Assembly (NCBI GenBank): GCA_019454145.1
Contig: CP075366.1
Coordinates: 1,467,564-1,531,563, forward strand
Source of the DNA: Fimbriimonadaceae bacterium
GTDB taxonomy: Bacteria > Armatimonadota > Fimbriimonadia > Fimbriimonadales > Fimbriimonadaceae
Direction of reading: 5' to 3'
DNA: 64,000 nucleotides
Part shown: positions 3,927 to 11,718 of the stretch, one piece after another
Numbering within the stretch: position 1 is the stretch's first letter
Layout of the letters: the number at the start of each line of letters is the position of its first letter
The notes under the pieces: model-generated
Told to the model about the DNA's origin: nothing
Seen by the model: the letters and a program-made list of their open reading frames with translations, nothing else
The model's database searches: none
Translations under genes and position numbers: made by a program

Positions 3927-4766
3927 TTAGGAGTTTTTGCGCTTGCGAGCAACCAGGGCCGCAATACCAGCACCAAGAACCATCATGCTCGCTGGTTCTG
4001 GAACTGGATTGATTCCTGTAGTTTGGTAGATTTGGTTCGCGATGGTTGGAGTGATTGTCGCATACCAGTTTTTAGCACCGTACTGCTCAAATTCTCCTCC
4101 AGAAAGAACTCCCCAAATTTTGCCACTGTTATCCAGGAGCATACTTCCGCTATCGCCAGGAGCACCAAATCCTTCGTAGAATCGGGCACCGTTTGCTGGT
4201 GATGTAAATTCGTCTATCAACATGAATTGCGATTCGCCGTTGAATACTCGAGTTTGAGTCGAATTTAAAACTGTTTGCATACCGCGACGGTTATTATCAT
4301 AAAGCCAGTTTCCACCCATAGTGCCAACTTGACCGTGTCCACCGTAACCAGCTGAATCAAACTCGGTACCTAAAGTATAAACACCACTCGTGTTGAGGCC
4401 CGGCGTAAATACGTTTCTATTCCACCCACTGATTTTGAAGATTGAGACATCAACTCCCGCAAATCCGATTGCTTGAGTGATGGAGTAACTGCCGCCATCG
4501 CCAAAAGTGAATGTTCCTGTGTTGCCGGTTGTAATAACATGCTTTGCGGAAATACCCCAAGCTTGACCACCGGTTCCAATTCCAAGGAAGGTTCCAGTTC
4601 CAAACCCACCGCCAACATTGACTTTTCCAACGCCTAAAAATCGGGATGTTGCGCCAAACGCCTGCATTTCTGCATCCGTTCGACCATCCCGCCAAACAAT
4701 GGCCTGACTCATCACGGGAACAACCGCTACAACACCAACCGCAAACGCGACTAAACCTTTCTTCAT
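3927..4766 (-). CDS. PEP-CTERM-anchored trypsin-like serine protease
   Basis: A 279-residue exported protein. Residues 1-22 form a signal peptide (MKKGLVAFAVGVVAVVPVMS). The middle is a degenerate chymotrypsin-fold domain in which I place the triad at His76 (ISAKHVI), Asp106 (GVDVSIFKI) and Ser206 (GAPGDSGSMLL). Residues 255-279 are a textbook PEP-CTERM tail: VPEP, a hydrophobic helix, then RKRK. Such proteins are exported and then processed and sorted by an exosortase, not seen in this window. The start is the ATG at 4766, preceded by TTGGAGGG; a longer TTG reading from 4784 would begin inside that ribosome-binding site. It lies 113 bases downstream of the anti-sigma gene on the same strand. 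Confidence 0.82.
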   Translation of the reverse strand: MKKGLVAFAVGVVAVVPVMSQAIVWRDGRTDAEMQAFGATSRFLGVGKVNVGGGFGTGTFLGIGTGGQAWGISAKHVITTGNTGTFTFGDGGSYSITQAIGFAGVDVSIFKISGWNRNVFTPGLNTSGVYTLGTEFDSAGYGGHGQVGTMGGNWLYDNNRRGMQTVLNSTQTRVFNGESQFMLIDEFTSPANGARFYEGFGAPGDSGSMLLDNSGKIWGVLSGGEFEQYGAKNWYATITPTIANQIYQTTGINPVPEPASMMVLGAGIAALVARKRKNS

Positions 4767-4879
4767 TACTTTAATGCCCTCCAAGGCAAATCAAGTCTTG
4801 GCAACCCAAGAACAATGAGCTTAGTTTACGGCATAGCAAGAGAGAGGGTGTAAAGAACTGGTAGTTTCACTAGGAATAT

Positions 4880-8686: not shown

Positions 8687-8783
8687 ACGACAACAAAACA
8701 CTGGCAATATCGTTATTTTTGCTTTATCTCTATGAAGCCACTTTAACTTTGTGCCGATAAAACTAACAGGGAAGGTACTGGGA

Positions 8784-9407
8784 ATGGCAGGTTTGATGCT
8801 CCGGGATGCAATTGGCGAACTTAGTTCGTTGCTCCCCGTCGTACTTGGCCTTTCAATTCCGTTTTTTTCTGCGCGCAAAGTCTTAAAAGGATCAGCTACA
8901 AAATCAAGTAGCAAAGTCGAATTAGAGGCAGAGGTAGAAGCACTCAAATCCGCATTAGCTGAGGCTCAAACGGAATGTGACAGTTTGCGCTGGACGATGC
9001 AGCAGACAACTTCCATCCAAGCCGCCACACTTGAGCGTTTCCGCACCACCTTTTACGAATTGCCTCTCCCGGCTTTCACAGTGAACGATCTCGGTCATGT
9101 GATGGAGTGGAATCTTGCTGCAACCAGCTTTTTTGGACGAACCGAGCCAGAAGTGATCGACCATCCCATTTCCGATATTCTCGGCAGCAAAATTTTCCGC
9201 AACGACGCCGAAGGAATGATCTATTTAGTATTTATGGGTGTTCAGCCAAAACCAGCAGAAATAGAACTTGATATGATTGATGGCAGCACAAGAACCGTTC
9301 GATGGTTCGCCTCGCCGATTAGGAATAGTTCCGGTCAAGTGGTTGGTGCGCTAAACACCATCGGGATTTTGCCAAGATTCGACGAAGACGTTGAAGCCAG
9401 AACCTAA
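8784..9407 (+). CDS. Membrane-associated coiled-coil PAS-domain protein
   Basis: About 207 residues from the ATG at 8784, which has AGGGAAGG eight bases upstream; a GTG at 8751 would add 11 residues but lacks a ribosome-binding site. A hydrophobic stretch near the start (LSSLLPVVLGLSIPFFSA) may anchor it. A coiled coil follows (KVELEAEVEALKSALAEAQTEC). The C-terminal 120 residues form one PAS domain (FYELPLPAFTVNDLGHVMEWN, then NSSGQVVGALNTIG). There is no kinase, GGDEF or other output domain, so it probably works by protein-protein contact. Its stop overlaps the stop of the convergent MinD-like gene by 3-4 bases. Confidence 0.75.
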   Translation: MAGLMLRDAIGELSSLLPVVLGLSIPFFSARKVLKGSATKSSSKVELEAEVEALKSALAEAQTECDSLRWTMQQTTSIQAATLERFRTTFYELPLPAFTVNDLGHVMEWNLAATSFFGRTEPEVIDHPISDILGSKIFRNDAEGMIYLVFMGVQPKPAEIELDMIDGSTRTVRWFASPIRNSSGQVVGALNTIGILPRFDEDVEART

Positions 9408-10231
9408 GCCGCTGCTGTTTCTTCTTCCGGCTCGGCTGATTTTGAAAACCGATTCTTTAGGCGATCTAGCATTGATAATTCAATTGTCTCGCTGACCGCT
9501 TCTCCCATAACCGCATTTGCCGTATCCACAAGATCTTGCGAAGCATGGCAAAGTGGGTTTGATTCAGCAAACGCTTTTCGCTCAGCGCAGCATTTAGCGA
9601 CAGTCACATCGTGTCGTACTGAGCCCCAGAAATCTAGCTCTCGGCTTAAGAATTGGCCAACGATCGTCTGAACTTCTTTCGCAAGCTGACGGCCTTGAAC
9701 TGCGTTCGCAACATGATTCACTACTAGCCCGGCATGAAGCGTCGGTTTGAGTTCCCACGCGCTTTTAAGCAATGCGTACGAATCCATGAGACTCGTTGCG
9801 TCGCCAGTTGTTACAAGTAGGCATGAATCGCTCTGCTGAAGGAATGGATAAACCCGCGAACCTAATCCGGGAGCGCAATCAAAGATAACATAGTCATAGC
9901 TTTTGCCAAATTCAATGACTTGCTGGATGAGGCTCTCTACTTCCTGCTCGGACATTAACGCGAGTTCTTTCCACCCGCTCCCGCCAGAAATCAGATCGAC
10001 TCCGCTTGCGGTAGTCATCACCGCATCTCGCAGTTCACGATGATCACGAACTACATGACCAATTGTGCAGCCGAGTTCTAAGCCGAAGTACATATCGCAG
10101 TTGGGTAGCGCAAGGTTGGCATCGAAAAGAAGAACTTTCTTTTCGTCTTTGGCAATGATTGTCGCTAAACTGCATGCAAGCGCACTTTTGCCAACTCCTC
10201 CCTTTCCACTACAAACCGCAACTGTTTTCAT
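9404..10231 (-). CDS. MinD/FlhG-like P-loop ATPase
   Basis: 275 residues. The deviant Walker A motif SGKGGVGKSAL (residues 8-18), LLFDANLALPNCDMYFGL and YVIFDCAPGLG (Walker B-like) place it in the SIMIBI MinD/ParA superfamily, closest in style to FlhG/FleN and MinD. The C-terminal stretch IELSMLDRLKNRFSK could form an amphipathic membrane-targeting helix as in MinD. No minC, minE, parB or flagellar gene is near. It lies 3 bases downstream of the motif-repeat scaffold gene and is surely co-transcribed with it, suggesting that the two proteins position some envelope machine, perhaps the pilus. Partner and role are inferred. Confidence 0.82.
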   Translation of the reverse strand: MKTVAVCSGKGGVGKSALACSLATIIAKDEKKVLLFDANLALPNCDMYFGLELGCTIGHVVRDHRELRDAVMTTASGVDLISGGSGWKELALMSEQEVESLIQQVIEFGKSYDYVIFDCAPGLGSRVYPFLQQSDSCLLVTTGDATSLMDSYALLKSAWELKPTLHAGLVVNHVANAVQGRQLAKEVQTIVGQFLSRELDFWGSVRHDVTVAKCCAERKAFAESNPLCHASQDLVDTANAVMGEAVSETIELSMLDRLKNRFSKSAEPEEETAAA

Positions 10232-10234
10232 TCT

Positions 10235-11650
10235 CTAAGCACCTTTTTTCCATAGATGCGAGAATTTTTCCCAGCTACCCACCCTTTTTTGAGCACCGGA
10301 CATCATTGCAAAGCGAGCGTGTACCTCGCTGACTTCTGCATAAACTTCTCGAAGACCGTTCACCACCTCTGCAACCGACGCTGGTTCTATAACTATTCCT
10401 AAACCAACTGCCTTCGACATTCGGTCAACTGCTACCCTATCTACCGGTTCAGCAACTCGGCACAAAATCTTTCCTTCTTGGAAGCAAACTGGCAGTGCCA
10501 ATGCACGAATTGCGAGGTGGGAAGGAATCGCTTTCACGGCCCCTAAATCAAATTCATTGCTACTAGACCTCTGCTGAACCGATTGTGCGACCGCCGCTGG
10601 GTGCACGGGCTCCGACTTGGCCTGAGGCTCAAAAGTTTGTTGGGCCTGCAATAAACTTCCCAAATCATCGGCCGTCAACGGACTTGCTGGTGCACCACCG
10701 AGTGCATTTGCTTCCGCTAACAAGCGAGAAATCTCGTCGTCATCCATTGCCACCGATTCACTCGGAACAATTTCTCCCTCTGGATCGGGTTGTTCTAGAA
10801 GTGAAGCGATGTGATCCGCGCTCATAACATCTGAGTTCGATTCTGCGAGCATTGCCTCAAGTTGAGATGTATTTGTCCCTGTCTGAGCAGCAAGCTGCTC
10901 GCGTTCCTCAGATTGGTTCTCAATACTTTGGCGAACCATCGCCGCCAAATCTTCCTCAGTTAAGCTCGCAAAGTCAAAGTCGTCTTCTTCATCAACCACT
11001 TCTTCGATGGGTTCATTTGTTGCTGTAGGTGCGCTGTATTCGGCACCTTGTTCCAACGCAGCGGCAATGTCATCATCACTGATATCCGTGCTCAACATTT
11101 CAGATGGCTGTTCTGCACTCTCGAAACTAGTGGAAGAAACCTCTTCTTCAGCTTGAGGTGCGTCACTTAGATGCTGGGCTTGACTAAGGAGGGCAGCAAT
11201 CTGATCGTCTGTCATCGGCGCATCTTCATCAGTTTCGTCTACGCTGACAGTTGGTTCAGTCTCCGTATGTTCAGGAGAAGGCTCTGCCATGACTTGGTCA
11301 AATCCTTCTAACAAAGCACTTGCCTCTTCTGGAGTGATCGCATCTTCTTCGTCGTCTTCAATGATTTCTTCGGATTGAACGATTTCCGAAACAGGCTCTT
11401 CGACAACTTCTGCAATTTCTTGAGCGACTTCTTCCGTAGTCGTTTCTTCAACTACTGGCGCATCGGGTTGCGATTGAGAACGGAGTTCAGTTACTTCCTG
11501 CGTGAGCTGCTGAACTTGAGCAAGAAGTTGGCTCAAAAGCTCGGGCGTCACCGCATCAGTGGGAGCCGCTGTTGGAGCCTTTTTCACTCGTTTTGCTGCT
11601 GGCACCTTTGCCTCGGTGGTTGCAGCGTCTGCTTTTTTTCGTGCCGCCAT
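10235..11650 (-). CDS. Acidic multivalent-motif protein with C-terminal MshEN domain
   Basis: About 471 residues (ATG at 11650; a GTG two codons earlier is possible). Numbering below is from that GTG. Residues 1-35 are Lys/Ala-rich. Then seven to nine copies of a short motif, hydrophobic-[ST]-x-[DE]-[DEQ]-[IL]-[AS]-x-[LM]-L-x-[EQ], sit in acidic disordered linkers: near 36, 107 (ITPEEASALLEGF), 148 (MTDDQIAALLSQA), 192, 232, 261, 278 (MSADHIASLLEQP), 304 (MDDDEISRLLAEA) and 327 (LTADDLGSLLQAQ). The motif resembles the LSQDEIDALL signature of FliM/FliN/FliY N-termini. Residues about 374-445 look like the MshEN/GspE_N domain of pilus and secretion ATPases, some of which bind c-di-GMP. There is no ATPase domain. 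It reads as a scaffold for the neighbouring MinD-like ATPase; function unproven. Confidence 0.7.
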   Translation of the reverse strand: MAARKKADAATTEAKVPAAKRVKKAPTAAPTDAVTPELLSQLLAQVQQLTQEVTELRSQSQPDAPVVEETTTEEVAQEIAEVVEEPVSEIVQSEEIIEDDEEDAITPEEASALLEGFDQVMAEPSPEHTETEPTVSVDETDEDAPMTDDQIAALLSQAQHLSDAPQAEEEVSSTSFESAEQPSEMLSTDISDDDIAAALEQGAEYSAPTATNEPIEEVVDEEDDFDFASLTEEDLAAMVRQSIENQSEEREQLAAQTGTNTSQLEAMLAESNSDVMSADHIASLLEQPDPEGEIVPSESVAMDDDEISRLLAEANALGGAPASPLTADDLGSLLQAQQTFEPQAKSEPVHPAAVAQSVQQRSSSNEFDLGAVKAIPSHLAIRALALPVCFQEGKILCRVAEPVDRVAVDRMSKAVGLGIVIEPASVAEVVNGLREVYAEVSEVHARFAMMSGAQKRVGSWEKFSHLWKKGA

Positions 11651-11718
11651 GATCACTACAGGTTCAAAACCTAAAGAACCTACTCAAGATTGTCGGCGTA
11701 AAAACCTAATCCTCTAGA

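Follow-up and report, generated by a model that had tools for sequence, protein, structure and literature searches.

A conserved array of FliM-like motifs on a scaffold protein paired with an FlhG-like ATPase in Fimbriimonadaceae

The HubP and FimV polar landmark proteins are acidic, repetitive scaffolds that recruit ATPases of the MinD/ParA superfamily, and in McdA/McdB, PomXYZ, and similar systems the adaptor of the ParA/MinD ATPase is disordered or coiled-coil. In FlhG, an N-terminal DQAxxLR helix stimulates FlhF. It is an open question how bacteria lacking FlhF set the number and position of their flagella, and present knowledge comes mostly from Pseudomonadota and Bacillus. HubP/FimV has been linked to FlhF, and the FliM N-terminus binds FlhG at a site that FlrA also uses (PMC11236974); binding of the FliY N-terminus by FlhG requires K177, R207, and F215, and substitution of R207 abolishes it (PMC12327844). 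The LSQxEIDxLL motif of FliM is a ligand of phosphorylated CheY (CheY-P) (PMC5677366), with a key salt bridge between FliM Asp12 and CheY Lys119 (PMC7012829). MshEN domains are receptors of cyclic di-GMP (c-di-GMP) that carry two 24-residue RLGxx... motifs (PMC5013675). Here, we describe a gene pair in a 64,000-nucleotide stretch of a Fimbriimonadaceae genome (assembly GCA_019454145.1, contig CP075366.1, positions 1,467,564 to 1,531,563; the whole stretch is hereafter called the window). It encodes a scaffold protein with a repeated FliM-like motif and an FlhG/FleN-like ATPase of the MinD superfamily.

The host genome (G000) is complete (Armatimonadota, 2.76 Mb in one contig, 99.6% completeness). 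The scaffold gene lies upstream of the ATPase gene, and the gap of 3 bases keeps both in the same frame (TAG AGA ATG), confirming the close spacing to an FlhG/MinD-like gene reported in the initial annotation. The probable scaffold start is the ATG at 11650, two codons past the GTG, where that annotation also ended the region. As a separate observation, the ATPase ATG follows the scaffold stop TAG (10235-10237) and the single codon AGA in frame, and readthrough would give a scaffold-ATPase fusion; the TAG-AGA-ATG arrangement is also found in G004, and the 3-base gap likewise in G003.

The scaffold carries 7 clear copies of the motif, or 8 when a degenerate one is counted, in an acidic chain of ~300 residues (26% Asp+Glu, 2% Lys+Arg), which bears out the repetition in disordered linkers that had first drawn attention to it. 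FliM N-termini from related genomes (15 distinct sequences; MS[DE]ILSQxEIE[AS]LL) were made into a profile, to which the scaffold gave 6 matches of at least 7 bits, compared with a mean of 0.26 (maximum 2) in 1000 shuffles. Over all scaffold orthologues, matches of at least 8 bits occurred at a density of 9.9 per 1000 amino acids, versus 0.52 in 310 control proteins. When the window scaffold was compared with that of the closest relative, G004, the motif cores were 89.5% identical, with 0 indels and a ratio of nonsynonymous to synonymous substitution rates (dN/dS) of ~0.03 (dS being near saturation), whereas the linkers were 66.7% identical with 25 indel columns. The difference between cores and linkers was significant (Fisher p = 1.6e-5), with the mild circularity that motif boundaries were picked by eye from the window sequence. 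Judged from this alignment, the motifs are under purifying selection, and the shuffles, control proteins, and selection test together rule out chance or low complexity as the origin of the repeats. A genome-wide DNA pattern for motif proteins returned FliM and the scaffold, the remainder being near the control frequency (14 vs 8).

The consensus of 59 motif copies was [LM]S[DAE][DE][ED][IL]AAL[LVFI], which keeps the frame L1, S2, E5, I6, L9, and L10 of the FliM LSQxEIDxLL motif. Copies in other genera were more FliM-like, including LSEDEIKALL (G017), LSEDEIAALL (G010), LSEDEIEALF (G023), and MSEDEIQALL (G011); the first two scored ~20 bits on the FliM profile, compared with 22-27 bits for true FliM. 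The scaffolds of G003, G005, and G007 have a separate [VL][TS]Q[EN]EID element, which matches FliM up to position 7 and lacks the following LL. A second conserved element, [ED]xxPxLLxxIxxFNA, lies upstream of the array in most orthologues (L053-L063) and has apparently been lost from the scaffolds of the window and G004.

The scaffold consists of a basic N-terminus, a coiled-coil predicted to be an oligomerization helix, the acidic disordered motif array, a domain resembling the C-terminal subdomain of MshEN, and a C-terminal amphipathic helix, WEKFSHLWKKGA, which by its sequence is a possible membrane-targeting segment. The coiled-coil also includes a loose match to the motif, at residue 36. 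In an AlphaFold2 (AF2) model (alignment of 7 sequences; mean predicted local distance difference test score (pLDDT) of 55; model residue + 3 = protein residue), helices were placed at the coiled-coil and at all seven array motifs, with the chain between them mostly at pLDDT <50, and the C-terminal part formed an MshEN-like fold followed by a final helix. Given the low confidence of the model, the motif helices are a hint that is consistent with the motif reading and no proof of it. No LysM or FimV Pfam match was found in the scaffold at E up to 1, and its translation contains no hydrophobic (transmembrane) segment.

The ATPase was compared with solved structures and scored 108 bits with FleN, 94 with Geobacillus FlhG, and 61 with MinD-1; it also fell below the MinD equivalog cut-off (TIGR01968, 71 bits vs 213). 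By these scores, it is nearest to FleN/FlhG and not to MinD. Its translation begins at the P-loop strand MKTVAVCSGKGGVGKS, and the DQAxxLR helix is absent. The ATPase ends in a membrane-targeting-like helix, SMLDRLKNRFSK, and this tail and the scaffold C-terminus are alike enough for MAFFT to align them together. The FlhG residues reported in PMC12327844 were mapped at a numbering offset of 8 for the 4RZ2 chain, at which all three residue types agree. K177, R207, and F215 correspond in the window ATPase to K156, E186, and F194, so that two are kept and the third is charge-reversed. Ten of 14 ATPase orthologues keep the equivalents of both K177 and F215, and the R207 equivalent is R or K in G001, G008, G010, G011, and G023. 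In the tree, which has several long branches, 13 of the 14 pair ATPases formed one group (91/84), with G022 outside, and a second FlhG-like group B was separate from them (98/95 for its family members). These comparisons suggest that the ATPase is the best candidate partner of the motifs, though with an altered site. Co-variation between the R207 position and motif position 7 was considered and proved inconsistent (G001, G008, and G011 pair R/K with non-acidic motifs). The ATPase itself has a FliM-like MSEQEVESLI at residues 93-102, inside the folded domain, which is not kept in more distant orthologues.

The initial annotation had stressed that no flagellar genes were present, which holds for the 64-kb window and not for the genome, where FliM (MSDILSQDEIESLLNSL), FliN, a fliO/P/Q/R-flhB-like run, and FlhA are encoded. 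No FlhF was found in the host genome (best TIGR03499 match 69 bits vs cut-off 174), and neither FlhF nor FlhG lies beside flhA. By gene content, the host and G004 are both flagellate, with a canonical FliM LSQDEIESLL motif and one lone CheW. Neither of these two genomes has CheA or any methyl-accepting chemotaxis protein (MCP), so that both the array and the FliM motif are retained without the classical CheY-P route. Most other pair-bearing relatives have CheA and MCPs.

The search of related genomes that had been proposed for this pair recovered it, with the ATPase gene adjacent, in 15 of 37 genomes of the same family (G000-G008, G010, G011, G017, G022, G023, and G029), and at least one motif was present in 14 of these (1 to 8 copies by the strict pattern). 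The pair was not recognized in other families of the order. In three relatives that lack FlhA, FliM/N, and CheW, neither a motif scaffold nor a strong ATPase match was seen; these genomes are few and incomplete. The named relatives carrying the locus are Fimbriimonadaceae/Armatimonadetes genomes and metagenome-assembled genomes, including Uphvl-Ar1 (CP021423), for which probable motility and a complete flagellar pathway have been reported (PMC5629041). In Uphvl-Ar1 (L095 3520-5315), a frameshift beside tandem repeats splits the scaffold open reading frame and is either real or an assembly error. The pair was not found described in literature searches or family libraries.

The MshEN similarity of the scaffold covers the C-terminal half of the domain only. 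The scaffold alone was below the Pfam threshold (16.8 bits vs cut-off 23.1), and a profile of 12 orthologous scaffold tails matched PilB N-domains (E 5e-5); the terminal MshEN domain of the initial annotation is thereby retained as its second half. This tail is 100% identical between the window and G004 scaffolds. The RLGxx... motifs and the N-terminal binding subdomain are absent in 15 of 15 scaffolds, and on this ground c-di-GMP sensing by the scaffold was rejected as unsupported. A paralogous pair 21 kb away (L066:7378-8766; G000:C1 about 1454941-1456329) encodes a 206-residue MshEN protein with RLG-type motifs (RVGDFLVEKG and RFGEVLVSMG, relaxed motif) and an ATPase that is still more FleN-like (176 bits), and this type of pair is widespread in the family. 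The host genome also has a fused MshEN C-subdomain-MinD-like protein of 388 residues (L068:10266-11432), with which ATPases of similar length in G002 and G023 group. The pairing of MshEN with FlhG-like ATPases is general, occurring as a split pair and as a fused protein in the host genome. The window pair appears to be a paralogous form from which the c-di-GMP-binding half was lost and to which the motif array was added, an order of events that we infer. A genus-level profile run over the named genome collection matched only the genus itself and unrelated MshEN proteins.

The reading we favor, though at somewhat less than even confidence, is that the gene pair forms a membrane-associated, multivalent FliM-mimic docking platform for an FlhG-type ATPase and controls the placement or number of flagellar C-rings. 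The scaffold would oligomerize through its N-terminal coiled-coil and be held at the membrane by its C-terminal amphipathic helix, and the disordered acidic chain would present 7-8 short helices. FlhG-type ATPases are known to bind the FliM N-terminus, which these helices may mimic, and the helices would therefore bind the co-translated ATPase many at once, perhaps jointly with the MshEN-like domain. The platform could then gather the ATPase at selected sites of the membrane and/or compete with FliM for it, and the outcome would be control of where or how many C-rings are completed in a lineage without FlhF. As a specific mechanism, FlhF-independent control of flagellar placement or number, in which a membrane-tethered FliM-mimic array captures the co-encoded FlhG-type ATPase and competition between scaffold and FliM gates C-ring assembly, is advanced here with considerable doubt.

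Several observations weigh against a FliM-mimic docking platform. The likeness to the FliM LSQDEIDALL motif, on which the initial annotation had relied, stands for the frame described above and fails at two positions: position 3 is D, A, or E where FliM has Gln, and position 7 is acidic in 1 of 59 copies versus 14 of 15 FliM sequences. On the ATPase side, the R207 equivalent is Glu in the window and E or Q across most of the genus, the membrane-targeting-like tail is missing in the orthologues of G008, G010, and G017, and AF2 of the in-frame TAG-readthrough fusion gave a well-folded ATPase and no usable interface. More than half of the family's flagellate members are without the pair. Finally, G029 has the pair and FlhA and zero motifs, so that a scaffold keeping MshEN without motifs, the finding that had been expected to speak against the idea, occurs in 1 of 15 genomes, while the other 14 keep motifs. 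A joint loss of motifs and flagella in G029 (no FliM/N match) is contradicted by FlhA, in a genome that is only 72% complete.

The lost R207 and the motif-less but, by FlhA, flagellate G029 also speak for a different explanation, in which the array helices are generic stickers or dock elsewhere (on their own MshEN-like domain, on each other as a condensate or oligomer scaffold, or on another partner), the cargo is non-flagellar, for example a pilus or secretion machine, and the resemblance to FliM arose because a common type of amphipathic, N-capped helix converged on it. Single motif copies carry little information, the MshEN-like domain is nearest to PilB N-domains, and the acidic chain, with its Asp+Glu excess, has a sticker-and-spacer layout. 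We regard this explanation as a real possibility, if a doubtful one. It is opposed by the density and scores of FliM-like matches, which are far above those of the 310 control proteins, by the best copies in several genera, which score near true FliM, and by the linked ATPase, whose own family is known to bind FliM.

The array could also be a multivalent dock or sink for CheY-P or another response regulator, as the initial annotation had considered. The FliM motif is the classical CheY-P ligand (PMC5677366), most pair-bearing relatives possess CheA and MCPs, and the host genome has two stand-alone receivers. However, 58 of 59 copies have a non-acidic residue at position 7, where FliM carries the Asp12 that pairs with CheY Lys119 in a salt bridge (PMC7012829). 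The CheY reading is further weakened because the host genome lacks CheA and MCPs, as does G004, with the motifs still conserved between the two; CheY-P is thus an unlikely ligand. Still further from the evidence is a c-di-GMP-responsive regulator acting through MshEN, the tuning originally suggested. Although MshEN is a c-di-GMP receptor (PMC5013675) and the paralogous pair carries RLG-type motifs, the loss of the binding subdomain from every scaffold makes this reading highly improbable.

The positions of the features are collected in Table 1. A MoxR-DUF58-VWA-VWA run lies upstream of the pair, and the order around the pair is kept across the genus. The PAS-domain protein is a possible third component of the system, and the gene beyond it is read as glpX. 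In G005, G006, and G002, an MCP gene lies a few kb from the PAS gene. Elsewhere in the window, the protein encoded at 3927-4784 (minus strand) ends in VPEPASMMVLGAGIAALVARKRKNS, a PEP-CTERM-type sorting tail, and comparable tails occur elsewhere in the genome.

Table 1. Features of the scaffold-ATPase locus, in window positions; residue numbers are those of the scaffold.
Feature	Position	Strand	Remarks
Scaffold protein gene	10235..11656	-	473 amino acids, GTG start
FlhG/FleN-like MinD-superfamily ATPase gene ('MinD-A')	9404..10231	-	275 amino acids; deviant Walker A SGKGGVGKS; without DQAxxLR N-terminal extension
PAS-domain protein gene	8751..9407	+	convergent with ATPase gene; N-terminal hydrophobic segment and coiled-coil; adjoins pair across genus
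N-terminal coiled-coil VTPELLSQLLAQVQQLTQEVTELRSQ, residues 36-62	11471..11551	-	conserved in orthologue alignment; AF2 helix, block pLDDT 71-90
Motif ITPEEASALL, residues 107-116	11309..11338	-	followed by conserved EGFDQVMAE
Motif MTDDQIAALL, residues 148-157	11186..11215	-	profile match, AF2 helix
Motif ISDDDIAAAL, residues 192-201	11054..11083	-	profile match, AF2 helix
Motif LTEEDLAAMV, residues 232-241	10934..10963	-	inside conserved DDFDFASLTEEDLAAMVRQSIENQSEE; AF2 helix
Degenerate motif TNTSQLEAML, residues 261-270	10847..10876	-	FliM-profile scoring
Motif MSADHIASLL, residues 278-287	10796..10825	-	most FliM-like of scaffold, 12.0-12.9 bits; AF2 helix
Motif MDDDEISRLL, residues 304-313	10718..10747	-	profile match, AF2 helix
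Motif LTADDLGSLL, residues 327-336	10649..10678	-	profile match, AF2 helix
MshEN C-subdomain-like domain, residues 366-440	10337..10561	-	without c-di-GMP motifs
C-terminal cationic amphipathic helix WEKFSHLWKKGA	10238..10276	-	LLDKVKLLFRR in one orthologue
ATPase C-terminal membrane-targeting-like helix SMLDRLKNRFSK	9440..9475	-	by sequence; conserved in genus

If the docking platform is correct, an FlhG-type ATPase with a multivalent FliM mimic would represent a new, valency-based tuning of a MinD-superfamily switch, and it would give a reason why the FliM N-terminal motif is conserved in a flagellate that has neither CheA nor MCPs. The pair also yields a compact prediction, that of one short peptide against one ATPase. 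The ATPase family and the adaptor logic are known; what is new is the array of FliM mimics, the lack of FlhF, and the pairing with MshEN.

Compared with the FlhG/FleN and FliM/FliY systems of Shewanella, Bacillus, and Geobacillus, the locus shares an FlhG-type ATPase, a membrane-targeting-like tail, a FliM-like N-capped helix on the partner, and a flagellate host. It differs in that the motif is repeated 7-8 times along a dedicated scaffold and does not sit at the C-ring, and in that FlhF, the DQAxxLR helix, and the conserved R207 are missing. Like HubP/FimV, the scaffold is acidic and repetitive, whereas it has no LysM, FimV, or transmembrane match, a different repeat unit, and a gene beside that of its ATPase. 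The combination of a ParA/MinD-type ATPase with a disordered/coiled-coil adaptor is shared with McdA/McdB and PomXYZ, from which the pair differs, by description, in its FlhG-related ATPase with a membrane-type tail, its FliM-like motifs, and its MshEN-like domain. Finally, the scaffold C-terminal subdomain is homologous by profile to the MshEN domains of PilB, MshE, and GspE (E 5e-5 to PilB), but the scaffold has neither their c-di-GMP-binding N-subdomain nor a PilB-type ATPase.

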